Source of the DNA: Lineus longissimus
Taxonomy: Eukaryota > Nemertea > Pilidiophora > Heteronemertea > Lineidae
Assembly (NCBI RefSeq): GCF_910592395.1
Contig: NC_088326.1
Location: forward strand, 6,393,001-6,457,000
Direction: 5' to 3'
Length of the DNA: 64,000 nucleotides
Shown: positions 19,483-50,084 of the stretch, in pieces
How positions within the stretch are numbered: position 1 is the stretch's first letter
How the letters are laid out: the number at the start of each line of letters is the position of its first letter
Program-made: the position numbers and the translations under genes
The notes under the pieces: model-generated
The model's database searches: none
Seen by the model: only the letters and a program-made list of their open reading frames with translations
Told to the model about the DNA's origin: nothing

Positions 19483-20066
19483 GGTTTTCCCGCAGTAAGG
19501 AGCTGGGGTCAAATTGGTGGTCTATTGTTTATGGGTGCTGTGTTAGCCAATGCTAGCCCTTGATTATCAAGGGATTTTCAAATGAAGGTTACCATGGTCT
19601 GTTTATGTGCTCACCACAGCTTCCAATACTTGATGTATCTGAAGAGGCACTCTGAACTTGGCATGGCCTTATCCAGGAGCTGCTCACGGTGCTGAACTTC
19701 TAGCTTGCCTGTCGACTAAGTTCCCTGCCCGAGATCATGCTACATGTAGGAGGAGCACGCACTTTAAAGTTATAGTACATGTAGTGATAGTGCAATTGGT
19801 CCGAGCCATTTGGAGGCCGATATGTGAAGGCCTATCTGGGTTCTCCTTCTTCTCCGTATAAAAAGGGGCATATTGCTGACTAAGGAACGAGGCATATTCA
19901 CATTGCCTCATCATCTCTATCGGACCAATTGATATACTTTTATGTGCACGCATACAGCACGCCACAGGGTCCGAGTCTGTGGAATGGTTGGTTTAATTTG
20001 TCTCTTCGATATTGCTCCTTTGATATTGCATTAGATTTTCATTGCAATTCAATCTATTCAAGGTAT
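19483..20066 (+). repeat. dispersed 1-kb repeat, copy A, right part
   Basis: It matches 57779-58359 almost throughout, including the TATA-like CCGTATAAAAAGG and the end CTATTCAAGGTATA. Together with 18105-18487 it makes one copy of about 970 bp. The TATA-like box could reflect a promoter-bearing element such as a solo LTR, but no boundary is proven. Confidence 0.8.
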
Positions 20067-20639
20067 ATTTTCCTTACGCATTTCCTCCAGGCCAATAGAA
20101 ATCTGTGCTTTGATTTATCTGAGAGATCCCAGATTATCCCAGATTGCGGACCCATACAGGACAGACCCAAGCAGGATTTTAGACTTAACGCTCTTTTGAT
20201 TAATAATACTCAAGCCGCATTTAAGCGGCGTGCACTCACTGATCGGTTTGCAATTTGCTATGAAAAATAGCCATAATATATATAAGTTCTGAATAATGGC
20301 AATGTTGTGACGGGCGCATACAGGTATATAATAATCATAAGACATTTCAAAGGTTTAAGACAAAGGGAATTTCTAACAATCTTGGGACGGTTATAACTCG
20401 CACCATTTTGCGCTTGCTTATAAGCCGAAACAAGCTCATTATTGGCAATTGAACCATTTTCTGATATCAAAAGCCAAGAAATCACTCGACTGTCGAATAC
20501 CCCACACTTTTAACCGTTACGTTACATCAAATTAGCGAATTTTCAATATAACCAAAAATCCGATTTCTCAACATGTTAATGCTTGACCACAAAAGTAGAG
20601 ACATTGTGAAGCTTTTCAGATGTTTTTCGTTTTTTACAA
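20067..20639. other. non-coding
   Basis: No supported feature. Confidence 0.4.
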
Positions 20640-33100: not shown

Positions 33101-33658
33101 GGCCTGCTGTGATTTGTGCTGGGAACTCCCTGTTATGAAATGTTTTGGGGTATGAGCTAATGTGGGGTGTGTGAGCAGAAGGCAAGTACTTTTGGAAGTC
33201 ACCGAGGACCGTGCAGGACCTGTTTTACGGAAGGAGCTCCGACTGATATCCTGGCGTTGGTGCCGTACGAGTCGTCGTGAAACGCGGCTAGACCACTGTG
33301 TTCCGTTGATATCCTTTTCTATATCTTCCTGCCTGAGGGCATACGGGGTCGAAGCGACCCAATTCCTGCACTGTATCTCGTCGATGTTCGGCCGGCCGAA
33401 TGTCATCCCGTTTTTCTAATAATTCGTTGCTCACACCCCCACCGGAACTGTCCCTTTGATATCTACTGAACGTTGAACATTGTCGTGAGTAAGATTCCTT
33501 TTGCTGAACACTGAACACTTATCTCTGTAAGAATTTTTGGACTGTTGCTAGAAATAGTAGTAACGTGCTTCTATGAACTATAATTCTATACTATACTATA
33601 ATGAATTGTTATAATTCTTGCCCGGAGGTACCGATAGCCTTGATGCACTTTGTCACAC
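30155..33658. other. non-coding; scattered diverged satellite units
   Basis: Single diverged copies of the 62-bp satellite phrase (CCCAGACCCTGCTGAT) occur near 31710 and 32770-32870. No gene is supported. Confidence 0.45.
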
Positions 33659-34150
33659 GCACTTTTTAAATGTCACTGTCGTAGACCCCAGCTGATTGGA
33701 TACTACTTTTCGAGTAAAACGCACATTTTAAATGTCACTGTCGTAGACCCCGGCTGATTGGATACTACTTTTCGAGTAAAACGCACATTTTAAATGTCAC
33801 TGTCGTAGACCCCGGCTGATTGGATACTACTTTTCGAGTAAAACGCGCATTTTAACTGTCACTGTCATAGACCTCGGCTGATTGGATACTACATGTACTT
33901 TTCGAGTAAAACGCACATTTTAAATGTCACTGTCATAGACCTCGGCTGATTGGATACTACTTTTCGAGTAAAACGCACATTTTGAATGTCACTTTCGTAG
34001 ACCCTGGCTGATTGGACATACTTGTTTTCGAGAGAAACGCACTTTTTAAATATCACTGTCCGAGACCTCGGCTGATTGGATACCAGTTTTCGAGAGAAAG
34101 GCACTCTTTAAAATGCCACGGTCCCAGACCCCGGCTGATGGATAGTGTTG
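33659..34150. repeat. 62-bp satellite array, about 8 copies
   Basis: The unit contains AAATGTCACTGTCGTAGACC, GGCTGATTGGATACTAC and TTTTCGAGTAAAACGCAC. Copies begin near 33659, 33721, 33783, 33845, 33911, 33973, 34036 and 34100. Divergence rises toward the right end. The units are contiguous with no variable spacers, so it is not a CRISPR array. Confidence 0.9.
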
Positions 34151-35784: not shown

Positions 35785-35853
35785 TGGTGACAGAAGTGGT
35801 CACTCTTCGACGATCATAACGTTCTTAGGGTGGACTATCAGTATTAATGGACT

Positions 35854-38640
35854 ATGTCATCCGATGACGAGACAGAGGAGGAAAACACGGGCCCACAAAT
35901 AGTCATGGCAGAACGTCCGAATCTCAAGCCGCCGGCACCTCTTGCTCTAACGGGGAATATTTCGGCGAATTGGAGGCGATGGAAGCAGAAATTTACGATA
36001 TTTCTAACGGCATCACGGATAACGGAGGAACCTATCAAGGTCGCTCTTCTTCTCCACTCAATCGGAGATGAAGGACTGGAAGTTTTCAATTCATTTGGAT
36101 TACCTGATGATGTCGAATACGCCCCGCTTATTAAAAAAATCGAGGTATATTGCACGCCTCAGAAGAATGTAACATTTGAACGCCATAGATTCAATTCAAG
36201 GATACAGCAGGAAGGCGAGTCCTTTGACTGTTTCCTCACGGATATAAAAATAAAAGCCAAGGACTGTGAATTTGACACTCTAAGAGACTCCTTAATAAAG
36301 GATCGCATTGTATTTGGCATACGAATGGATCGCACGAGGGAACGTCTGCTTAGGGAGAAGGAACTCACCCTCACCAAGGCGATAGATATATGCCGGGCAG
36401 CTGAGTTAACCAAGGAACAGATGAGTTCGCTGTCTAACGGACAGCAGCGTGATGAACAGACTGACAAAACAGTAAATGCAGTAGGCCGACAAGGATACAA
36501 CAAAGCCGCCTCGGGTTATCATAACCAATCAACGTATAAAGGCAGCGGCCCCAAGTGCGGGAATTGCGGGACTTTTCATCAACCACGGCAATGTCCTGCC
36601 TATGGCAAACAATGCAAGGGTTGCAAAAGGCTAAATCACTTCATCCGCTGCTGCAGGTCAACCAATAAACCAGTCCACAGCGTAGAGGAGGAGGACGATG
36701 ACGGTACGTACGAGTCTTTGTTCATTGGCAGCATCAATCAGTTAAAGGGAACAGACGAGTCTGATCAACAATGGCTAACGAAACTGAAAATGGGTCAGCG
36801 GCAGGTTTTCGTGAATTTGAAGATAGATACGGGAGCACAGGCCAACGTGCTGCCGTATAACCTATTCAAGCGGATCTGTAACAAACGAGATCTCATAAAA
36901 ACGAAAATACGGTTAACCACTTACGACGGAACACAGCTACCGGTGGCAGGGAGTTGCAGGATTCGATGCATATACAAGGATAACACGTTTTACGAGGATT
37001 TCGTAGTAGTGGACAAACGCAGTGATCCGGTCCTCGGGCTTTGCACGTCTGTCAAGATGAATTTGCTTCAACGTATCGATGCGCTTAATAGGCCTACGTC
37101 CGATAGTGAATGCATACTCGACGAATATAAGGATATATTCGAAGGTCTTGGTTGTCTAGATGTGCCAGAGCATCATATTGAAATTGATCCATCAGTAAAA
37201 CCAGTGATTCATGCGCCGAGGAAATTTCCCATTGCAATGCGGGATAGATTCAAAACTCAACTTGATCGATTGGTTGGTATGAATGTGCTCAAAAAAGTGG
37301 ATGAGCCCACTGATTGGGTAAATTCAATTGTGTTAGTTGAAAAATCAGATAAATCGCTACGTATTTGTTTAGATCCGAAAGATTTAAACACTGCTGTGAA
37401 ACGGGAGCATTTTCCATTGATCACATTGGATGAAATAAGCACTAAACTCGCTGGGGCGAAGTACTTTACTGTTCTTGACGCGTCCAATGGATTCTGGCAA
37501 CAAAAGTTGGATACGGAAAGTTCTATGCTCACAACATTCAACACATGTTTTGGGAGATATCGCTTTCTCCGTCTTCCGTTCGGAATCTCCTCGAGTGCTG
37601 AAGTGTTTAATAAAGCAGTGACGCAAATTCTGGAAAATTTGGAGGGAGTCATCAGCTACATCGACGATTTGTTAGTCTGGGGACGCACGAAAGAGGAACA
37701 CGACGAGCGACTTAGGAAAGTATTGGATCGCCTACGGGAGAAGGGGTTAAAGCTCAATAGACGCAAATGCAGAGTTGGACTCTCAGAGGTTGTTTACATA
37801 GGAGGATTACTAAGCGCAGATGGGGTCAAACCGGACCCGCAGAAAGTACAAGCAATCGTGGATATGCCTCAACCAGATTGCAAGGCCGCATTACGCAGAT
37901 TTCTAGGATTAGTAACATACTTTGGAAAGTATTTGCCGAACTTGTCAGACATTACGTCACCGCTCAGGCAGCTTCTTCCAGAAGATGCTGAGTGGGCTTG
38001 GCTGAAACAGCAGTCCGATGCTGTAGCGCAATTAAAAACAATGTTGACAACAGCACCAACGCTGAAATTCTATGATGTAACAAAACCAGTGACATTGACA
38101 GTTGATGCATCTCAGAAAGGACTAGGTGGCGCCATTTTGCAAGATGGGGCACCGATAGCTTATGCGTCAAGGGCATTAACGCCAACCGAACAGCGTTATG
38201 CCCAGATTGAAAAAGAAACATTAGCAGTTGTGTTTGGGTGCGAGCGTTTCCACCAATTCTTATATGCGCGGAATTTTGACGTCGAATCAGATCACAAACC
38301 ACTTGAGTCAATTCTTAAGAAACAACTTGGGCAGGCACCGCCCAGAATTCAGAGATTTCTACTGAGGTTGCAAAAGTACACTTTCAACTTGCGTTTTGTG
38401 CCTGGTAAGGAAATGTATGTAGCTGACGCGTTAAGTCGAGCATACTTGGAGGACTCAGATCGTGATAATGAACTCTCACAGGAAGCCCAATTACAAGTTC
38501 ATGCGCTAGTGTCTAGCTTACCAATAACCGCAGGAAAAGCTGATGAGCTAAAACGTGAAATACAAACTGACTCTGAATTGCAGACATTGTATAAAACTAT
38601 AGAATCAGGTTGGCCGGAAAATTGTTCTGAAGTTCCAGAT
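35854..38640 (+). CDS. Ty3/Gypsy Gag-protease-RT-RNase H, truncated before integrase
   Basis: ATG at 35854, about 929 residues, no stop. Gag-like region about 30-190 (WRRWKQKFTIFL), Cys/His knuckles from residue 235 (CGNCGTFHQPRQC and CKGCKRLNHFIRCC), protease IDTGAQANVLP (Asp about 325), RT with YIDDLL (Tyr 602), RNase H with TVDASQKGLGG and PGKEMYVADALSRA. After the residues that normally link RNase H to integrase (LYKTIESGWPEN), the text changes at about 38640 into a kinase. Integrase and the 3' LTR are missing. Gag and Pol share one frame here, unlike the 1.3 kb element, so this is a separate lineage. It is cut short by deletion or recombination but otherwise intact. Confidence 0.9.
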
Positions 38641-39502
38641 GTCGTGATACTTGTCCTGAAGGAAGCTAGGCTTATTTGTAGCCACAGACATGACAACATC
38701 GTCAAGTTCTTAGCCTTTAATGAACGATCTTCGTCGATGCTGCTGGAGTTCATGGAGTTCCAGTTCCAGTTGCTATCGATTGACAAGCAGCCTATAAACA
38801 ATCTTGGGGAACTTCTACAGGAATGTGACGATCTATGTGATTTCGAGAACTTCGAGCATATGCAGGGCTTTATCATGAAGGATGTTATATCAGGATTGGC
38901 CTATCTACACAGAAGCAATGTTGTGCACAGGGACTTAAAACCTGACAACATCCTTGTGTCCAACCAACATTTTTTAAATCCAGGTTCCTGCACGAAAGAC
39001 CTGTGGAATACATGTCCAGTGATTGCGAAGCTGACAGATTTCAGTGAGGCTCGGTCAGACCTCATACAAACGTTTCAACTATCGCGGAATACTCGAAAGC
39101 TTGTCCGAGGATCAGCGGCTTTTATGGCGCCGGAGGCCCTGCTGGAGACCCTTGTCACTGCAAATTTAGGAGATTTGAAGAGAATGGACATCTGGTCATT
39201 AGGCATGGTTGCACATTCCATGTGCAATCCAGACTCAAGCTTCCCTTACTGGAAGGAAGTGGAAGAATCAGGAGAAATGAATCAAAGGAAATCTCTGGAA
39301 CGTCACATGATGAAGAAAAGGCGACCATGCAATCTTCCGAAATATGAACTGACCCGGAAAAGATATTGGGATCCGGTTCATGAGGTTTTCCTGATTTGCT
39401 CGGTATTTGACTCAAAGGAAAGGCCGAGTATTGAAGATGTTCAACGAATCTTCAGCAGAAAGATTACTCCTAAGCCTGAAACAGATGACGATAGAGGAAC
39501 CG
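38641..39502 (+). CDS. protein kinase catalytic domain fused in frame to the retroelement ORF
   Basis: The reading frame continues from RNase H into a eukaryotic-type kinase. LKEARLICSHRHDNIVKFLAF is the alpha-C helix with its Glu. LAYLHRSNVVHRDLKPDN holds the catalytic Asp (residue 1027 of the ORF) and Asn, LTDFSEAR holds the metal Asp (1062) with DFG changed to DFS, and GSAAFMAPEALLE is the APE motif. DIWSLGMV and KERPSIEDVQRI complete the C-lobe. The Gly-rich loop and the Val-Ala-Ile-Lys strand are absent, replaced by retroelement sequence, so this exon alone should not bind ATP normally. It ends at a donor ACCG|GTAAGT (39503) in phase 1. Probably the first native exon(s) of the gene were lost to, or lie upstream of, the retroelement. 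Confidence 0.88.
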
Positions 39503-40482
39503 GTAAGTTGCTATTCATCAAAATTCCCATTTTACATTCTACCATTCAAACACAGCGGTTATCTTCCCCATTTATCTCTTGGTAGGAGCTTCTGTACACA
39601 TGTACATCAGCTCTTTTTACCGTCCACCTAATTCCAGGGGCCTGACATGCTGTGCTGGGTACTTGGTGAAAGTGGTTGGTTGACTTTGGTGATCCGTAAT
39701 TTTGGCATGTGCAGGTTTAACATTGCAGCACCCACCTTATTTTCTGAAGGAAGTCAGCCACGGGGGTGTGGCACTGGGGTCTTTATCTCCATAGACAGTC
39801 ACTATTGTTTTGGTGGCAGAGGGACCCATGCCATCCTATTCCTCTGACATACATAGTAGGACACGCAGATGCAGGGTCCATATGCCTTGATGCTCAAGAT
39901 AGGCTGGTACTATAGCAACTGAACAAGTGCGACCTCCTCTCTAAAATAGACACTCTCAGCGATCAAATTCACACAAGGGTATGCAATTATCTGTGGTTTT
40001 TCCAAACATTTTGTTCTGAAAATGAATCACATCGCGGATACTATAGGAAGTGATACGATAAACGGTATTTATGGGTGGTACATCTCCGCAAAATTAGACG
40101 TTCCCTCTCAATAAACAAATCACTAGGTATAGCTTAATCTGAACGCGTCCATAACTCAAATAAACGTTAGGTGACGCACTGCTAGTTTTAACAACGGAAA
40201 GAGAGCAATGTAAACAGCCTGAATTGGAACTTACAATCAAAACCTCTGTCCATGCAATGCACCGAGAAGAAGCATGTTTCAAACAACCAGCCAGGATGAA
40301 AGACTAGCTGGAATTTGGGTGGCGCCACTGTATTTTCCCCCAGCTCCTTCAGTATTGAACCCTTGGAACCAACACGTATATCATATTTCTCAATTGAAAC
40401 AGTCTAGTCAGTGATTGTACATGTACATGTATGTTCCATGTTGCATAAATGATAGATAGCAATACATTCATTTCATTCATAG
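39503..40482. other. intron
   Basis: Between donor 39503 and acceptor 40481-40482 (CATTCATAG). Nothing else recognised. Confidence 0.6.
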
Positions 40483-42576
40483 AACATGAGATGACATCAA
40501 GCCACCCTAATGGAGAATCAACCGGTAGTCAACAGAATGCAGACAATCTTCGACTAGAATTGGACTCGACAGACATTAGCAAGGTCGACCACCAAAAGTA
40601 AGCCTTTCCTAGGGGTTATCTAATTTTGAAAAATTGATTATATTTTATTTAACATTAAGCCAACTTCTCAGAGTTTTGTTATTTTCTGGTCATCCTAGAA
40701 AATAACTAAGTGGTCAAAGTCTGGTTCTTTTCTGATAGCCTACTTAAAAAACAGTACCGTATAAAGAAAAGAAAAAATTCTAATTTCAGATTGTCAGAGC
40801 CTAATGTTGATGAAGACCATCAAGGAAGTCGCAGTGCTGAAAGTGTGTCAACCGGCAGTGGAAGTTTAAGAGAGGTAAGGAAGATTGGCCATTTACCTAC
40901 TAGGCGTAGTTGCCATGAAATGAATTTGCGGCTTGATTTCCACACCTGATCATAAATTTTGTTTGCTCTCAAATTGTGCACAATCATTTGTATCTGTATG
41001 GTCAGTGACAATTCATGAACACTGTGGTCAACTACACATAGACGCTAGGCGTTTACCGCATAGTTGAACTTCCGAAAGCAGATGCTATATTTGTCAAAGC
41101 ACATTTTGGTTGCCTTTGCTGCCCAAATCAATCAATTAACACCGGGGTCTCGATTTTTTTATACTGGGTAACCAATTCTTTATCTTGCGTGACATTCTTT
41201 AAGTCATTCTATCTTGTAATAAATTCTAAACGCGATGTAACCCTTGCGTTGAAAAAAAGGTCTGTCTTTGGAGAAATAGGGACATTTCCAGCATTCAGTC
41301 CCAAAGGGAAGAATTCAGGTACAAATGAAACATTTTATTGTGGGAAATTGTGTGAAGTTTGAAGGTTTTGCTGAGATTTGAGGCAGAAAATGTAAAGAAT
41401 CTTTAAAAGTCGTACACCCTAGACGCCATCAACTTTTGTCTAACTTCACAACACAATGCACTCGATTCACTGCAAGTAAGCAAGTCGGAATTGCGTCAAT
41501 GCGAGTGAACGCCTGGCAAGTATCTGTACGTTGACCACAGTGATAAATCTTACACCAGTGTACATTTATATTATGTTATCATTTTTAATTCATTGTGAGA
41601 GACATGCAATATTTCACTGAATAAGCTCTGCTTTAAAGGTCACACGAAAATCGTACAAACTTTTGTTAGAAGTCCGTCTATCCACTTGGTGGACATCCTT
41701 TCAACAAAATAGTGCGCCAACTTCAGACATTGGCCCCAAGTATTGGTAAATTGGTCACATAATTTATTTTTAAGGACAACAATGACTTTGAAGAAATACC
41801 GGACGTCATCCATCAGCCTAGACAAAGACATGGACGAAAGCCTTATCAAGTAACGTAAGTACAATACGTAAACCTATTAGCCAATCTCAGCTGATCTGAA
41901 AATATGATCGATACCGAAATGTGACCAACGCCCTTGCAATTGGCTCACCGATGGTATGATGTCAGATGATTCATGGGTTGGCCACCAGGACGAAAGGTCA
42001 AAGATGAAAATTTGCATTTTCTCCTTTACGGGTCCGAAGAATAGGAGAAAAAATATGATAATGTACTTCTACTAATGGTACATCGCATATCCTCCGATTT
42101 TTTATTTGACCTAAAACTTTAGAACAGAATATATACGATTACTCACGAAAAATTTGAAAAATATATGGTACTTGGTAGGTTTTCCAATATTTATAGCAAA
42201 GGTACAATATCCTCCGCATTTAAATTCTTTCGACCTAATTTTCCAGGTCGCAGGGTCAAGGTCAGATAATTTTGTCCTTAAATGTCCTTAGACAACTCTG
42301 CCGCCCATGGCAAAATGAAGTACAGTTGGTTCAATGTTAATTCTGGATTTATTCCAACTTAAATGTGCCAACTCGTAAAGTTGACCATTTGTCCATCAGA
42401 CGTCCTGTTTATTAAATTAACCCTATTTTTCCTCCTCCTGGCTCCTCAAATAGAGGGGGTAGACCCAGAGACTGTACACCGCACCTTATTCAGTATTCTT
42501 TAGCATACCAAATTTTGTTTCTGCTTTCAGAAAGTCACTAACAACTGTGCCACATGAACCAAAAGACCAAATATCG
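40483..42576 (+). CDS. four small linker exons of the kinase-peptidase-transposase gene
   Basis: Predicted exons 40483-40597 (115 nt), 40790-40874 (85 nt), 41775-41854 (80 nt) and 42531-42576 (46 nt) each have a pyrimidine-rich AG acceptor and a GTAAG or GTGAG donor. Starting from phase 1 at 39502, the phases run 2, 0, 2, 0 with no stop. The encoded text is Ser/Asp/Glu-rich and disordered (for example SAESVSTGSGSLRE and DNNDFEEIPDVIHQ), as expected for an interdomain linker. Intron 41855-42530 holds a degraded repeat (GGTCAAAGATGAAAATTTGC-like) related to the 50.3 kb repeats. The joins are predictions, but the consistent phase is strong support. Confidence 0.7.
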
Positions 42577-43592
42577 GTGAGTAAGATATTTCATTTGTTT
42601 GTGGTCTTTTCTTCCTTTTGAAAGGAGCAGTGTATGTGTTGCAGAAAACTGTAAATGAGAGGGCCGCTATTTAGAAAAACCCATAGGGCACCTTGATTGA
42701 CAGTTGAAGACTCATGACATTTACCATTGACCATCTACTCTTAGAGTATAGAAGGCGTCAAGTGTGGCCTGAGCTGGATTTGAAACGTTATTTTAGGGGC
42801 CTAAATGTTTGGTTCATAAATAGACTAATAAGAGATGACAAGAGCAATGCAGGGTGTGGCTTATGCCCCCGACCTGGTCCAGAAAAGATGTGCTTTTCTA
42901 AAGAAGACAAATGTAGACTATGTTATGTCCCATCATTAGATGCATCCAACACGAACATTTGGTTGAGCTGTTTCCAATGATTAGGGAGAAATTGCACTGA
43001 CTTTGTTTCCACATCTAACCCTGGTCCTCTTGTGGCCAAACGATGGATCGTACAAGACCGAAACTTAGTGTCCAAGTCAATGTTGTTACCTAGAGGTACA
43101 TATGTATCAAATTTGGTCTCAATAGCTTCATTGGTTGTAAAGAAATGAAACTTCAATTCAAATTCAAATTCGTAAATTCAAGTACACTTTGACCTCTGTG
43201 ACCTTGAAAAGTAGGTCCATTAGATGGCGGATATGGTGCAAAGCTATTGTGTCACACATGTGTTGGACAGGGTCAGAGCTGGCTGTTTACCGTCCCTTTC
43301 GGGGTGGTCGGGTCTGAAGGGGTTAAGAGTACTTTAAGGTTGATGATATCAGATTGCGACTGCCCTGCTTCAACTGGCGATTCCTTGCTAGAGATGGTGA
43401 CCATGAATGACTCTGGTGTCAGATACATCCTCCCTGAGGCCGAAAATTCCTGTAGATTGCACTTGAAATTGCCACCATATGAGAATCATACAATATTCGC
43501 CATCACTTAAAGCAGCAGTGTACTGCCTGAAGTTATGCTGGTGACAAATTAGTCAGTTTGTGCTTGAATTTTTATTCTATCTCTTTTTGCAG

Positions 43593-44223
43593 GATGATGA
43601 GGAGGGATATGCAGTATTGGGAGACTTCCACCAGGCCTCTGACTTGATATTTAATGATGCATTTGCCGGTTCTCAGTGCACTTCCATGAGTGTGATGGCA
43701 ATTGTACTTGCCCTTCTCAAACCACCTGAGAATTGGACGAAGTTTACTCTTCACCAAGTGCTCATTGCGGGACACCGGGCACATGCGGAAGCACTGGAAC
43801 GTCTCGGATGGCCAGAGAATAGGACAGACTTGACAGTAGATATTGATGAGATTTCCGAGATCCAGACTGGTACTCTAGATGAACAGCACATACAAGCCAA
43901 CATTGGTGTGTTAACAGAGCCACAATTCGGTATGGAGATGAAGGGTTTAATCAATGAGCAGGTGCAGGAGGAGGCGGATGTTTCACACGTGCTGAGAGTT
44001 GGTGACCGATCCAACGCAATATTGCCAGGACGGAATGGAGCATGGTTTGTTTTTGACAGCCATGCCTGCCAAGCAAAGGGCATGTCCGACCCAGATGGAA
44101 GTGCAGGTTTGATAGTATTCCGATCGAAACAGAAGCTCATTCAACACCTCACAAGACGATATCCTGATGACGGGCAGCAGATAGATCTGTTCAAGGTTAA
44201 TGTGCATAGTTTGGCAGAAGAAG
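43593..44223 (+). CDS. papain-like cysteine peptidase exon (C76/herpes-tegument DUB-like)
   Basis: Acceptor CTCTTTTTGCAG (43581-43592) and donor GTGAGT (44224). It enters in phase 0 and leaves in phase 1, 210 codons. Near the start GSQCTSMSVMAIVLALL offers the candidate nucleophile Cys (TGC 43677) at the head of a hydrophobic helix. Later NGAWFVFDSHACQAKGM gives Asp-x-His (GAC 44055, CAT 44061), then SAGLIVFRSKQKLIQHL. This Q-C ... strand-D-x-H layout is that of papain-fold deubiquitinating peptidases of the herpesvirus tegument type (MEROPS C76), relatives of which I recall from Helitron- and other transposon-encoded proteins. Ubiquitin-chain cleavage is an inference. It lies between kinase and transposase in the predicted gene. 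Confidence 0.7.
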
Positions 44224-44648
44224 GTGAGTAATTGTCAAGAATGGAATGAGTGGTGGTCAATGAAGTGATAACGATTTACCATATAGTTTTTTAAACACTG
44301 GTAATAAATGGATTAAAAACGCAGCACACTGCAAAATCTAGCTTGCAGCTATTAATTGAAAGGGGATGTACAAATATACTAAAATTGCACCAATAATCAT
44401 CGTGATGAAGAAACAAAGAAAAGTTCCAACTCTGACTAGGACTCTAAATCCACGACTTCGACAACACTGCCTCGCACGAATGTACCAACGCCTTAGCCCT
44501 CTGAGCTAAATCGCCATTCTTAAAAAGAATGGTCATTTATTGTCGAGGCAACCATTTTCAGTTGACTAAGGTGTCTTTCAACCTAAGACGGTAGGCCTAT
44601 CAAAAGAAAACCTTTTCAGAATTCTCAACAGAAACCATTTGCTTTCAG
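44224..44648. other. intron with tRNA-like SINE remnant
   Basis: On the minus strand, 44430-44516 contains a tRNA A-box-like TTTAGCTCAGAGGGCTAAGG but a poor B box, so it reads as a SINE or tRNA pseudogene. Confidence 0.45.
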
Positions 44649-44711
44649 TTATTGGTCGTAGAGATGACAGAAATGAAGGAAACTGCAGCAAGAGAGATGA
44701 AACATCACCTG
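44649..44711 (+). CDS. cassette exon A (63 nt), duplicated
   Basis: Acceptor TTTGCTTTCAG and donor CACCTG|GTAAG. The length is a multiple of three, so it can be included or skipped without changing frame (phase 1 in and out). It is nearly identical to exon B at 45335, including about 25 nt of upstream intron. Confidence 0.6.
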
Positions 44712-45334
44712 GTAAGATTATTTTTTGTTTTAGATTTAGATTTAGATAGCATTTTTGATGTTAACATGAAAACCTGGAACGTCCCCTGTCTTTGGTTGAT
44801 GGTACCACAGAAAATTTGCGTCTGTCAGACCGCCTGAGATAGAAGATGGAATAAATAAAACAACATGGGTGTCTTCCCTACCTTTGACGAAGGTGTCCCA
44901 TAAAATTCATGTCCACGAAAAAGAGCGGTTCTAGAAATTAAGATTCAAACACTAAGATGGTTGCCTGGCCGACATCTTGGAATTTGGGTCGGAACCCAGT
45001 CAAAGATACCACAAACAATTTTAAAGTCTAATGGGCCACGGGTTCTTTTTAAAGGTCAGGTTCTTTTTAAGGTCGGAATTCATAAACTAAGACGGCTACC
45101 AGGCGGCCACTTCGGATTTTGAATTGGATACAAAATCAGTATGTAATTTACATTTAGGTAGTCGATGGGATGCCTAAAAACTGAAGTAGACATGCTGGAT
45201 TACTTCACTTTTGGGCAGAGGGTGAAAGTGAAGGCTGAAAATTGATAGGGAACATTCAATGTGCTAGGGCAACACCCCATAGAAATTTCCGGTGGGGTGC
45301 CTATGATTTCTCAACAGAAACCATTTGCTTTCAG

Positions 45335-45412
45335 TTATTGGTCGTAAAGATGGAGGAAATGAAGCAAACTGCAGCAAAATATATGAAACATCACCTGGCT
45401 TTGTCAAAACAG
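45335..45412 (+). CDS. cassette exon B (78 nt), duplicated
   Basis: Same acceptor and first 63 nt as exon A with seven substitutions, extended by 15 nt to the donor ACAG|GTAAC. Also a multiple of three. Both cassettes are open in the phase that links the peptidase exon (ends in phase 1) to the transposase exon. Confidence 0.6.
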
Positions 45413-45685
45413 GTAACATTCTTTTTGTTATGATTTTTGCCACATAGCACTCTTGTTGTTAACCCTTTCAGTGTCGATGTCAACCAATTTCCAGCCCTTT
45501 GACCCTGACCAGAAAATGGACGTGGGGACATGTTTTTCACCCCCAGTGCTGCCACCAGTCGCAGTGGAAACAGGCCTTAATGCCAGCGTCAGTGAATTAC
45601 ACCGATTGTGCAACTGGGCCCGGTAGTTTAGGCAGGGCCTGCTTACCTACCTATAGTTCTTATCATATAAGTTCACTTTTTTCAG

Positions 45686-47562
45686 ATGATCTCCTGATAT
45701 CGTCTATTGACAGCACAGATGAGACTGCTACAAAACCGAAGAAGAAGAATAGGTATAGAAAGGACCAGTATGATCTAATACATTGGGCAGAGTGCCAGCC
45801 ACGAAAGGTAGAGGAACTTCCCCATGATATTGATGGGTTGAACACGTACCATGTTCCTTGCAGTGACAAGAAGGTTATGATGAAGGTCTCCAAAGATGGT
45901 AGACCATGGGCACGTTACTGTCTAAGTTCAAGAAAGGGATTTTCAGGAGAGCGGAGACTTGCTCATTGCAAGGGATCCCCAATATGTGTGAATGGGGAGT
46001 GCCAGTTTCGGCAGATGTATGGCAGCCAAAATCGAAAACAATTTAAGAAGGAAAGTGACACTCAGGTGTGTTATTCCTGCGGTAAACCTGCTGAGAGTGT
46101 TGAGTGCCCAGCTACAAAGATTTGGGAATTTCGCAAGGACTTTGTGACAATTATGCACACTGGTACACATACATGTGTAGCCACAAAACCCAAGATTTCG
46201 TTGGATGTCATTGAAAAAGATCTGAAGCAAAATCCAGGTATCACTCCAGGTAAAATAGTTTCATCAAAAATGATGAACCTCATGTCCTCAGAAAACTTTC
46301 AATGGGAAAATATAGAGGAAGTCGCAGAACAATACACTGACCTTAAGCGAATGCACAATGTTCGGCAGAGACTGAAAGCTGACACGTTTCCGGGCGGTGA
46401 AAATTTTGAAGCACTAGCCGCATTTAAACATAAATGCGATGAGAAGGACCAGTTTTTCATCTTCCGCATGAACAACAGGGCGTTCAATGGTGAGCATTCT
46501 TACGTGTTCAAATCAAGCAAAGGGATGGTCGAACTGATGCTGGCGATGGACAAAGATGGGGGAGGTGTGCTTTCCCGAGAATATGCCTATGTTGACGGAA
46601 AGCACGACCATTGTAAAGGATTTGTCACTCTGACCCTTTGGGTCTATCACCCTGTCATGCGAAGATTGGTACAGCTAGCCATCTGTGACACAGAAAAGGA
46701 GGACACCACAAATTTACGAACATTCTGGACAACCATCAATGCGATGGTCGCAACAGCAACTGAGACTGACAAGAAATTCAACCCTCACGGATTTGTGGCT
46801 GACGAGAACCATGCCAACTGGCGCAGTATTGAGCAGGTTTATGGGGAGGATGGAGTGAAAAGAACAGTCTCCTGTGAATTTCATTGGAAGCAGAGTGTTC
46901 ATCGGCAGGCAAAAAAGATGCCATCACATCAGGTCGGTGAATTCACTGAAATAACAAACGAAATGCTTACCGCTTTAACCATTGCTGACTACAATAGTGC
47001 CTGCGCCAGAATGACAGAGTTCATGAAAAGTGGCGTCACGGAAATTGAACATTGGTTCAACTGGTGGCATAAAAGACGCAGCCACATCTTCAGGGCATTC
47101 AAGCCAAGTGACGCACCATCATCCAACCTTGCTGAAGTCGGTCATGCCAAGATGAGCAGTATCGGGAAAAAAAACATGACGCTTCTTGACGCAGCCAAAG
47201 AAGATGTTATCGGAGCGATCCGTCAAGAAGCGGAGATCAAGGGCTTCTACGAGGGAAGATGTCCTGGGGGTCGTGGTCGATCTACAAAGCAGAAGAAGGC
47301 TGACCAGTTCAAGGCAGATAAAAAAAGAGTTGCTGCCTTTTCTAAAGAACTGGACCGAATTTATGTGCCGGAGAGCGGTTCTCATCGCCCTACAGAACAG
47401 GGACCTAAATCTAAACGCCGAAAGAAGTCCCAAGTTTCCAATACGCCAAAAGAGCAGAGGCAAAGAAATGAACCAACTCAAGAACAAGGCACGGCCACAA
47501 CAAAAAAGGATGAACAGCCTGTTTGCGTATGCCTTGCTACCTTGGTAATGAACCTTCAAACA
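45686..47562 (+). CDS. MULE-type DDE transposase with GCM/FLYWCH-like zinc finger
   Basis: The exon starts after TTTTTTCAG (45677-45685). With the G carried over from 44223 it opens in frame and encodes about 626 residues up to the MITE. The N-terminal third has spaced Cys/His residues (HCKGSPICVNGEC, CYSCGKPAESVEC, HTGTHTCVA), like WRKY-GCM/FLYWCH DNA-binding fingers of MULE transposases. The DDE core follows: YVDGKHDHC (Asp 46594), HGFVADENHANW (Asp 46801), the MULE C-x2-H signature SCEFHWKQSVHRQ, and SSNLAEVGHAKM (Glu 47134). A Lys/Arg-rich region follows, with a possible nuclear signal SKRRKKS. All three acidic residues are present. The ORF upstream to 45499 is intronic. The final 90 residues are encoded beyond the MITE at 48182-48454. 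Confidence 0.85.
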
Positions 47563-48172
47563 GGTAACCGGAAAAACGCCGACCGACCGACCGACCGACC
47601 GACCTACTCGCCGACTCTGACAACCTCACTTACGGCATCCCATTCGCGCCTCATAGCCCGGTAACCGGAAGAACGCCGACCGACCGACCTGCCAACCTAC
47701 TGTCATAGTGCAGTATCCCTTTCGCTTCTCTATAGCACATGTATCTGTGTAGTGCCCAGCGCAATGGACGTGATGGAGTCCGACGTGTCTGACAGCAGCA
47801 TCTCCAGTCAATTATACCGGGAAAACGAGTTCACGCGGTAAGGAACTGATAACGATACTCTAAAGATATGCTTTGTCTACATGGTCGGTGGATATCAAAA
47901 CATGATTTGGGCCTAATTATGCACTGTAGTTTTTCTACTCGAGTGTCTCGACCGATGCAATGCATGAACTGCAACGCGCAACATGCATTTGTTGTCATTT
48001 GACCAGCGCACGTGCGCTTGTTTACAATTTCATTTCACGTGACCTGCTATCGTGGATTGGAAATATCACATTGACTTATGAGACCTGTGACTCAACTACG
48101 AAACTCCTTGGGTTGGTAGGTCGGAAGGTCGGTCGGTCAGTCGGTCGGTCGGTCGGCGTTTTTCCGGTTACC
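47563..48172. mobile_element. 610-bp Mutator-like MITE with (GACC)n termini, inside the transposase exon
   Basis: It starts GGTAACCGGAAAAACGCC followed by GACC repeats and ends with the exact inverted form. A perfect 9-bp duplication CTTCAAACA flanks it (47554-47562, 48173-48181). The terminal motif also occurs once more inside (47660-47690, one base changed), as if an element had inserted near its own end. No transposase is present. It introduces a stop (47662-47664) and cuts off the last 90 residues of the host ORF. Confidence 0.92.
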
Positions 48173-48181
48173 CTTCAAACA

Positions 48182-48454
48182 TGCTATGGGTGCAAGCATC
48201 AATTTGCAGACAAGTATAAAAAGCCACCAAATGATGTAATTCTCAAAACATTCCTGAAGAGGACATACATGGTTAATGGGGAAGAACGCGTTACTTCCAA
48301 GACTTCTGCAACATACTTCCATTTGAACATCAACTGCGTTAGGATGGTGAAACCCTACAGTCAAATTAGTCAAATTGTTGTACATGACGAGGTGAAACCT
48401 GATTTATCTGAGGGACACAAGAGAGTTCTCACCAAGTTTGGCGTGCACCTTTAA
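48182..48454 (+). CDS. C-terminal part of MULE transposase gene, beyond the MITE
   Basis: It continues exactly the frame that stops at 47562 once the MITE and one 9-bp copy are ignored. It encodes 90 residues to TAA, starting CYGCKHQF and including KPPNDVILKTFLKR and TYFHLNINCVRM, a Cys/His-containing tail I recognise from related invertebrate MULE proteins. The apparent start of this ORF upstream lies within the MITE and is not real. Confidence 0.8.
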   Translation, partial: CYGCKHQFADKYKKPPNDVILKTFLKRTYMVNGEERVTSKTSATYFHLNINCVRMVKPYSQISQIVVHDEVKPDLSEGHKRVLTKFGVHL

Positions 48455-48490
48455 TAATTCAGTTTTCAAACAATCTAACCTGTCACTCGA

Positions 48491-48771
48491 GGTGCCCCCC
48501 ACAACAGAAGTCTGACACCGCATAAGTCTGACAAGGGAGATATCTTTTCTGACCTTTTCCCATAAGTCCGTCACACAACAAGTCCGACATTAAAGAAAAA
48601 GGTATCACAAGTCCAACTTCCCATAAAGCCACTATCCAAATCCCGATGGATGCTCTGTTTTTTGACATATGGGACGTCTGGTCAGACCTATGATACTTTT
48701 TTCTTGAATGCCGATCGGACTTGTGGGGTGTCAGAAATATGATGTTTCAGACTTATGGGGAGGAGGGCACC
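48491..48771. mobile_element. 281-bp MITE with 9-bp target duplication
   Basis: It begins GGTGCCCCCC and ends GGAGGGCACC, is flanked by GTCACTCGA on both sides (48482-48490, 48772-48780), and lies 27 bp after the transposase stop codon. The phrase ATAAGTCTGAC and variants recur in both orientations within it. Confidence 0.82.
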
Positions 48772-50084
48772 GTCACTCGACTAGAAAGGAAAACACACTG
48801 GAAAATTTTGTAGTCTGTGTACCGAATTTTTGAACTTGTTGTCCTTAACTGCCAGTCAAATTTATTTTCATTCCAATACAAGAGATGCTAAAAATGCTTC
48901 TCGACCTATGACAACAGGTGAGCACATGGTCCCACTTGACCATTTTATTGTATTTCACCTTGTAGTGCGATATCTATTCATGCATGTTTACTGTTGTTCG
49001 CAAGTACGATTCATCTAATACATGTGTTTCTGTCCTGATAGCAATTTTGCTCAAAGGTCAATGCTGTTTAGAGAGCATGGCCTGGTCAATTCATAATTTT
49101 GATTGTACATTGTATTTTGATTGTATACCGGTAGCTATATATCATGCCAAGGCTACTATTATCTCGATCAATCCCATGTCATGCATGTTGCCTGACTATG
49201 CCTACTGGACATTTTTAGCATAGTCTATATTGGGTTGTTCACTTTCCAACGTTTTCACTAGGTTGCTAAGAGTACTCTTTCCCTTAGACCCCCCACCCCG
49301 GCCCTCATAAAGAGTAGGCCCCCTACGGTAAAAAAATGTTGATTTTAGAGTTCTAGATTCTAGAGTTTACAGTGAGCTTGACCACACACATCCCCGGCTC
49401 CCAAGAGCGCATACTTTAAAATACCACTTAGCTGGCACATTCTAATCAAACTGAGTCCAACTATAGGGTAGGGTAGATGAGCAATGCAAAGAACAGCCCA
49501 GGTTAAAAGGATCAGATCTGATTTTGCCCTGGGCTCTTCCGTTGTCGCATTGTCAAATTGTCCGAACGCCTCAATTCCAAGGGCCAAATTCATGCATGCA
49601 AGTATGATTGATAAAGCTGCCGATCGGTTAGGGCCTATTAAAAGAATGTGTTGACTTTTTTGGTCAAATGATAACTGGTGTAAAGGTTTCAAGTGTCCTG
49701 GGTAAAGTGTCCTATGAACAATAGCTTGGCACTGATATAGAGTTAGGTTTGGGATCAAATAGATTTTGTAATATTCAAAATACATGCATGCTGTATTTTG
49801 GACGAAAGCGCGACAAAGGCAACAAATCGCGTCCGTGGGTATAAGCCTTTACTGTAGTTTTAAGTCTAATTTTAAGTTCTTTGGCACTATCCTAGAATTT
49901 TTCCCACGTTCCGGTTATGGGTGGTTTCTAGAGAGTTGAAGTTGGATGCTGTCTAGATAAATGATTTAAGAAAGCCAGGAATTCCATTGCATATTTCAAT
50001 ATTGGGTTTCTTGATCTGTTTTCATCACATTTTGTGCATGTTACGTAAGCCCTATAGTATTTTTAGCATAAATTACCTTTTTAG
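48772..50084. other. non-coding
   Basis: No gene is supported. Confidence 0.4.

Follow-up and report, generated by a model that had tools for sequence, protein, structure and literature searches.

The stretch of the Lineus longissimus genome analyzed here (C20:6393001-6457000, 64,000 nucleotides; hereafter the window) very probably contains a broken Mutator-like DNA transposon copy, the gene of which encodes a protein that runs from an N-terminal protein kinase through a linker, a VTD-type deubiquitinase, and another linker to a DDE-type transposase and a C-terminal zinc-finger-like domain. Comparison with the copies on contigs C15 and C8 places this copy at 38650..50082 on the forward strand, with both termini missing. 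A first-pass annotation of the window had described kinase, cysteine peptidase, and transposase exons in order on one strand, and the same arrangement was recovered at 38650-48454 (+). The genome searched comprises 391 Mb in 30 contigs. Within it, the parts and their order are conserved in four diverged lineages, designated A (which includes the window) to D, and lineage B has ends with target-site duplications (TSDs). A single transcript and a single protein spanning the three domains are predicted.

When the window VTD exon was used as the query, at least 23 matching rows were found genome-wide; these and the corresponding rows for kinases (at least 25), A-type transposases (at least 20), and lineage C transposases (at least 40) are lower bounds. 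Four of the VTD rows have 97–100% identity (lineage A, including the window), three have 58–60% (lineage B), and six, representing five loci, have 36–56% (lineages C and D). A further 10 have 22–25% identity, and six of these are located inside open reading frames (ORFs) of more than 1000 residues. The locus set was defined by at least 36% identity to the window peptidase, and its 13 rows correspond to 12 loci after two rows at C6:8.977 Mb were merged. A search of the animal's own genome for the three-domain order had been suggested previously, and it supports the association: among the 12 loci listed, 10, distributed over all four lineages, have a kinase upstream of the VTD on the same strand at a distance of 1.3–4.7 kb, compared with a chance expectation of about 0.0004 per locus. 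A transposase match lies downstream of the VTD at all 12 (four in A, three in B, four in C, and one in D), including C6:9163486 of lineage C, where it consists of fragments only. Kinase neighbors and the A/B/D transposases were paired by tabulation, and the lineage C transposases were paired by eye. The complete order spans seven contigs and is present at C20 (window), C15, and C8:13.57 Mb in lineage A; at C13, C6:11.38 Mb, and C8:15.20 Mb in lineage B; at C1:14.20 Mb, C14:10.29 Mb, and C1:11.20 Mb in lineage C; and at C6:8.97 Mb in lineage D.

Lineage B is a DNA transposon with the hallmarks of Mutator-like elements (MULEs), which are given in PMC5225508 as terminal inverted repeats of more than 100 bp, subterminal tandem repeats, and TSDs of 8–10 bp. 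Its three copies, which make it the best-preserved lineage, measure 11730, 11541, and 10680 bp between termini and have the short terminal motifs GAGGGTTTC.../GAGTGTTAC.... Their ends, GAGGGTTTCTTTTATGCG and, inverted, GAGTGTTACTTTAGTGCG, each run into an array of 21-bp repeats. The C6b copy has 18 repeat units in one array and 27 in the other, and in the C13 copy the right array is reduced to a stub. The inverted arms are about 400 nt long in C6b and 368 nt long in C8b (94% in both). TSDs flank all three copies, namely AAAAATAAA twice (9 bp), ACTGTTGG twice (8 bp), and TTCCAAAG versus TTTCAAAG (8 bp, one mismatch). Terminal inverted repeats with 9-bp duplications, which the first-pass annotation had named as a feature to look for, are therefore present in lineage B, with a TSD length of 8 or 9 bp. 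The ends of lineage A are similar in kind and carry 20-bp arrays; one was found at the left of the C8 copy (GAGTGTTGCTAATATGCAAG) and the other, inverted, at the right of the C15 copy (GAGGGTTTCTTTTCTGCAAG). The near-identical copies on different contigs, together with the inverted terminal arrays and 8–9 bp TSDs of lineage B, bear out the earlier suggestion of a large transposon.

The peptidase of this element is predicted to be a VTD, that is, a herpes-tegument-like (C76-like) deubiquitinase. The window VTD exon (43593..44223, +, phase 0 to 1) by itself has a weak match to Herpes_teg_N (E about 0.01, ranging from 0.0099 to 0.013; 15.6 bits with a cut-off of 25), and a PDB search with this single exon returned no match. 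An alignment of 13 VTDs was prepared from 16 loci cut out, with L018, L020, and L024 excluded. All 13 members match Herpes_teg_N with an E-value of 1 or better (best 7.1e-13), and the profile built from them matches PDB entry 8add, a zebrafish Helitron VTD, with an E-value of 3.3e-19. This profile also matches 6ppb (1.4e-4), 8adb (9.6e-4), and 6w2d (1.8e-3); two herpesvirus tegument proteins and 8adb are among the matches below 0.002, and M48 (2j7q) reached only 0.69. The residues H13-Q14, C29, and D155-S156-H157 are invariant in all 13 sequences and include the predicted catalytic Cys (C29) and Asp-x-His (D155 and H157) residues; an Asp-x-His layout of VTDs is described in PMC9741609. The previous identification of a C76-like deubiquitinating peptidase from its Cys ... 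Asp-x-His residues is upheld by this invariance and by the 8add match. Among the ORFs with 22–25% identity, two were scanned against Pfam, and L021 was found to contain Herpes_teg_N and OTU domains, and L023 Herpes_teg_N and DUF6570. We take both to be Helentrons, and the VTD domains of L021–L024 are presumably preceded by a 2A-like NPGP motif.

The kinase exon of the window is truncated (38650..39502, +). Its Pkinase match (Pfam; E 3.6e-23, within a long window ORF) covers positions 44–257 of the 263 in the profile and therefore includes no N-lobe; the C-lobe motifs reported earlier are real, and what that report missed is the loss of the N-lobe. Neither a motif scan nor a BLAST search with the lost 5' part found an N-lobe elsewhere in the window. 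The window kinase also lacks the glycine loop and the VAIK lysine, and DFS replaces DFG; the C8 and C15 copies carry GRGTYG, VVVK, and DFG at these sites. The glycine loop, lysine, HRD, DFG, and APE are all present in the C8 (lineage A) and C6b (lineage B) kinases, which match Pkinase with E-values of 1.3e-33 and 2.7e-35, respectively, and the lineage C kinase has HRD, DFG, and APE within the portion read. The element is predicted to encode a Ser/Thr-type protein kinase, with the high probability that we give to the reading as a whole. Kinase rows without an adjacent VTD match include those at C1:14.33, C11:5.56, C13:8.16, and C8:15.83 Mb.

The transposase exon (45686..47562, +) consists of a cysteine/histidine-rich N-terminal part and a DDE-like core with the motifs VDG, FVADENHA, CEFH, and NLAE. 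For profile comparison with hhalign, a three-sequence profile of the A, B, and D transposases was compared with a profile of five MULE ORFs (PF10551) from the same genome. The match, which centers on D372 and the C396..H399 motif, has a score of 42.8 and an E-value of 2e-4 with a probability of only 47%; the controls scored 21.3 (best of 60 column shuffles), 16.9 (reversed profile), and 11.8 (unrelated profile). In lineage C, the transposase used as a query matches PF10551 below the cut-off (21.1 bits, E 4.3e-4; cut-off 27.6), and the transposase of the three-domain locus at C1:11.20 Mb, which is 46% related to this query, exceeds it (29.9 bits); we assign the lineage C transposase to the MULE DDE type on this basis. 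The C-terminal domains of lineages A and C match each other (E 1e-4). The DDE MULE core claimed in the first-pass annotation is a tentative assignment in lineages A, B, and D, given the hhalign match and the lack of a Pfam MULE match, and its GCM/FLYWCH-like finger was not confirmed in the family searches. A PDB search with the transposase returned nothing relevant, and a scan of viral contigs for relatives of the A/B/D transposases gave 43 pattern matches, none of them confirmed.

Several observations weigh against the element as read here. The window transposase exon has no Pfam transposase match, and the A-type transposases have no MULE match in either Pfam or NCBIfam. When a single lineage C sequence was compared with the MULE profile as a positive control, the score reached no more than 23.6 (E 0.057), and the A and C transposases show no detectable kinship by BLASTP, for which lineage B was used, or by hhalign (E 0.24). 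AlphaFold modeling of the window transposase by itself gave an uninformative structure (pLDDT 35.8). Among the lineage A copies, the window included, none was found to retain both ends, and two of the 12 VTD loci, C6:8.96 Mb (lineage A) and C6:9.16 Mb (lineage C), have no match to the kinase. The connection between the kinase and the VTD is also poorly conserved. The lineage B model (C6:11.38 Mb) has seven exons and a conceptual protein of 1370 residues with no stops. When it was compared with a lineage A protein composed of the C8 kinase exon and the remaining exons from the window, the linker before the VTD has 24.6% identity (16/65), four linker exons lie between the kinase and the VTD in A and two in B, and the phase at the end of the kinase exon is 1 in A but 2 in B. 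Identity is 35.0% (116/331) in the kinase, 59.5% (122/205) in the VTD, 27.7% (13/47) in the second linker, 58.5% (352/602) in the transposase, and 58.9% (53/90) in the C-terminal domain.

These differences in linker sequence, exon number, and phase would be compatible with a single element that has two separately expressed genes, a kinase gene upstream and a VTD-transposase gene downstream. The separation of 1.3–4.7 kb between kinase and VTD agrees with such an arrangement, as does the kinship of the kinases (40.6% identity between B and C and 33.4% between A and B, the latter over a longer stretch), which is unlike that of the VTDs (60% between A and B). Against it, linker exons with good splice sites hold one frame in both lineages, and an exon encoding KS..VP.EP with phases 2 to 0 is common to A and B; from the exon preceding the VTD onward, the phases of A and B agree (0, 1, 1, 1). 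The claim of one gene in the first-pass annotation is thus favored by the splice model and its conservation across lineages and is weakened by the linkers, and we regard the arrangement in two genes as unlikely, although it is the most credible of the alternatives. The domains may also have been exchanged between elements. The proportions of changed silent and replacement sites between A and B are 0.816 and 0.455 in the kinase, 0.499 and 0.218 in the VTD, and 0.843 and 0.262 in the transposase. Silent sites have reached saturation everywhere but in the VTD exon (window 43593-44223 versus C6b 19557-20184), which looks younger than the neighboring exons. In addition, lineage B resembles A in its VTD and transposase, whereas its kinase is nearer that of C. 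The younger VTD exon and the discordant kinase kinship are a hint, not proof, of module exchange.

The multi-exon structure, and the long flanking and intron sequences that the lineage A copies have in common, would also be expected of a domesticated transposase gene or of a family of host genes multiplied by segmental duplication. Copies within a lineage differ by about 1%. In lineage B, replacement changes per site are fewer than silent changes in five of the six copy comparisons (1–10 changes each), a deficit that would fit a host gene and that active transposons would show likewise; it might reflect a lineage that was active until recently. The similarity among lineage B copies, however, stops at inverted termini flanked by TSDs in all three cases. 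Furthermore, replacement changes are not depleted among the lineage A copies, including the window, and these copies contain a stop, a deletion, or insertions, which also speaks against the domesticated gene proposed earlier. A host gene is therefore rejected as very improbable. Passive and recent capture of the kinase and VTD as host gene pieces, in the manner of Pack-MULEs, deserves slightly less credence still and is likewise rejected. MULEs are described as picking up gene pieces in PMC6431247 and PMC5225508, but the kinase and VTD are complete with their catalytic residues in the better copies, are only 33–60% identical between lineages, have changed less at replacement than at silent sites between A and B, and belong to elements that carry their own transposase. 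Chance nesting of the three domains from separate sources, for which only the nested retrotransposon fragment and the miniature inverted-repeat transposable element (MITE) found in the window might speak, is hardly conceivable given the same order and strand at 10 of the 12 VTD loci, on seven contigs and in four diverged lineages.

For the window locus itself, 38650..50082 is 98–99% identical to the C15 and C8 copies, introns included, except for the MITE and for deletions of 1.2 kb in the C15 copy and about 0.07 kb in the C8 copy. Beyond these limits the C15 and C8 copies extend further and the window copy stops, and a BLAST search of the window found the lost lineage A ends nowhere else in it. 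In the exon models, for which splice sites were picked by eye, the kinase exon is followed on the forward strand by linker exons at 40483..40597 (phase 1 to 2, open in frame), 40790..40874 (2 to 0), 41775..41854 (0 to 2), and 42531..42576 (2 to 0), the last of which encodes KS..VP.EP and resembles a lineage B exon with identical phases. Between the VTD and transposase exons are two linker exons, 44649..44711 and 45335..45412 (both phase 1 to 1), which sit in a 94-nt direct repeat (90% alike) and are near-duplicates; the former has a lineage B counterpart, and the latter was placed by the repeat and the splice model. The phases after successive exons are 1, 2, 0, 2, 0, 1, 1, 1 in one open frame and contain the previously noted series 1,2,0,2,0,1,1. 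What had been taken for the last intron is a 610-bp MITE (47563..48172) inserted within the coding sequence, with 53-nt inverted arms (91% complementary) and a 9-bp TSD (CTTCAAACA; 47554..47562 on the left and 48173..48181 on the right). Its left border reads ACAG/GTAACC, such that splicing of the MITE as an intron may be possible. The insertion is absent from the C15, C8, and C6 copies and is specific to the window copy among lineage A; lineage B is uninterrupted at the same point. Continuity and identity with lineage B place the C-terminal cysteine/histidine domain (CYGC...YFHLN..C) and the stop at 48182..48454 (+). The loss of the kinase N-lobe, the DFS motif, and the MITE that splits the last domain indicate that the window copy is broken.

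Upstream of the element, Pfam matches to RVT_1 and RT_RNaseH identify a Ty3/gypsy gag-RT (reverse transcriptase)-RNase H fragment at 35848..38642 (+). The long ORF at 35848-39585 consists of this fragment to about 38642, followed in the same frame by the kinase exon. Because similarity to the other transposon copies begins only at 38650, the fusion is a matter of chance and lies outside the gene, and the gene start previously placed within this ORF, at 35854, does not hold. No second full long terminal repeat copy was found in the window. A 62-bp unit is repeated in tandem about 7.7 times at 33657-34144.

Two other loci combine a kinase with a transposase. On C3, a kinase (10327449-10328267) shares its strand with a C-type transposase (10320157-10321938), and the interval between the two contains no VTD match; this region (C3:10320157-10328267) is perhaps a relative that lost or replaced the VTD. 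At C6:9.154-9.161 Mb (L043:188-6829), a Transposase_21/DUF4218-like ORF (both matches below the cut-off) is preceded on its strand by a different kinase, 23–26% identical to the A and B kinases; the pair may belong to a CACTA-like element with a kinase of its own. The wider region C6:9154001-9174000 was considered as a CACTA-type element with both a kinase and a VTD, and this candidate was rejected since the VTD there precedes lineage C MULE fragments; the upstream kinase and the Transposase_21-like ORF may instead be nested neighbors.

Among known systems, Muta1 of Aedes aegypti, a MULE, resembles lineage B in its long inverted termini, short subterminal tandem repeats, and TSDs of 8–9 bp, and perhaps in a transposase with a MULE-like core (PMC5225508). 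Muta1 is 3.2 kb long, whereas lineage B copies are 10.7–11.7 kb and the present element adds a kinase and a VTD; its A-type transposase escapes the Pfam MULE model. The VTD Helentrons of zebrafish and other animals (PMC9741609) have the deubiquitinase family in common, with conserved Cys and Asp-x-His residues, but are rolling-circle elements with RepHel and no DDE transposase; no helicase or Rep domain was found in the A and B ORFs scanned with Pfam. Ulp1 MULEs of lancelet, hydra, and plants and the OTU/Ulp1 Ginger1 elements likewise combine DNA transposase genes with a protease of the ubiquitin or SUMO type, which belongs to a family other than the VTD (PMC2836005). The herpesvirus large tegument protein (peptidase C76) contains a homologous domain with Asp-x-His, but as part of a virion protein. 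Ulp1-type proteases in MULEs and OTU plus Ulp1 in Ginger1 (PMC2836005) and OTU and VTD domains in Helentrons (PMC9741609) have thus been published. The words kinase and MULE are absent from the main text of PMC9741609, as is the word kinase from that of PMC2836005, and neither a kinase in a MULE nor a VTD in a MULE was found among the papers listed in searches of the open literature, which excludes subscription papers and Repbase. Because PMC9741609 also mentions VTDs joined to transposon-associated domains in genes of cnidarians, some of the present finding may already be known.

The possible functions of the two enzymes are more speculative. Helitron VTDs have been proposed to prevent proteasomal degradation of transposition proteins (PMC9741609), and for the Ulp1 and OTU domains of transposons, DNA repair factors have been suggested as possible targets (PMC2836005). 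A cut-and-paste MULE protein may bring its own ubiquitin-removing and phosphorylating enzymes and could in this way couple phosphorylation and deubiquitination to DNA transposition, as the first-pass annotation proposed, and it is conceivable, though on balance we remain doubtful, that both are accessory parts that manipulate the host. The VTD would deubiquitinate either the protein encoded by the element or host factors, and we tentatively favor a role in sparing proteins needed for transposition from the proteasome. The target of the kinase might be the transposase, or else a host factor for repair or silencing, and its phosphorylation would link excision to a permissive germ-line cell state; a cell-cycle or silencing factor is our provisional choice of target. 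More broadly, an old and wide animal MULE clade could carry an N-terminal cassette of kinase and deubiquitinase as a host-control module that licenses transposition through phosphorylation and ubiquitin editing of its own and has passed between elements whose two types of transposase are barely related, a conjecture in which we place less than even confidence.

Cut-and-paste transposons are thought to be minimal, consisting of a transposase and its ends. In the present case, two signaling enzymes, a predicted kinase and a predicted deubiquitinase, have been retained by a DNA transposon across four diverged lineages, and such retention suggests that they probably serve the element. The element may provide a tractable system for studying why VTD-type deubiquitinases occur in mobile elements as well as in herpesviruses, and it also opens the question of whether transposons phosphorylate host proteins.

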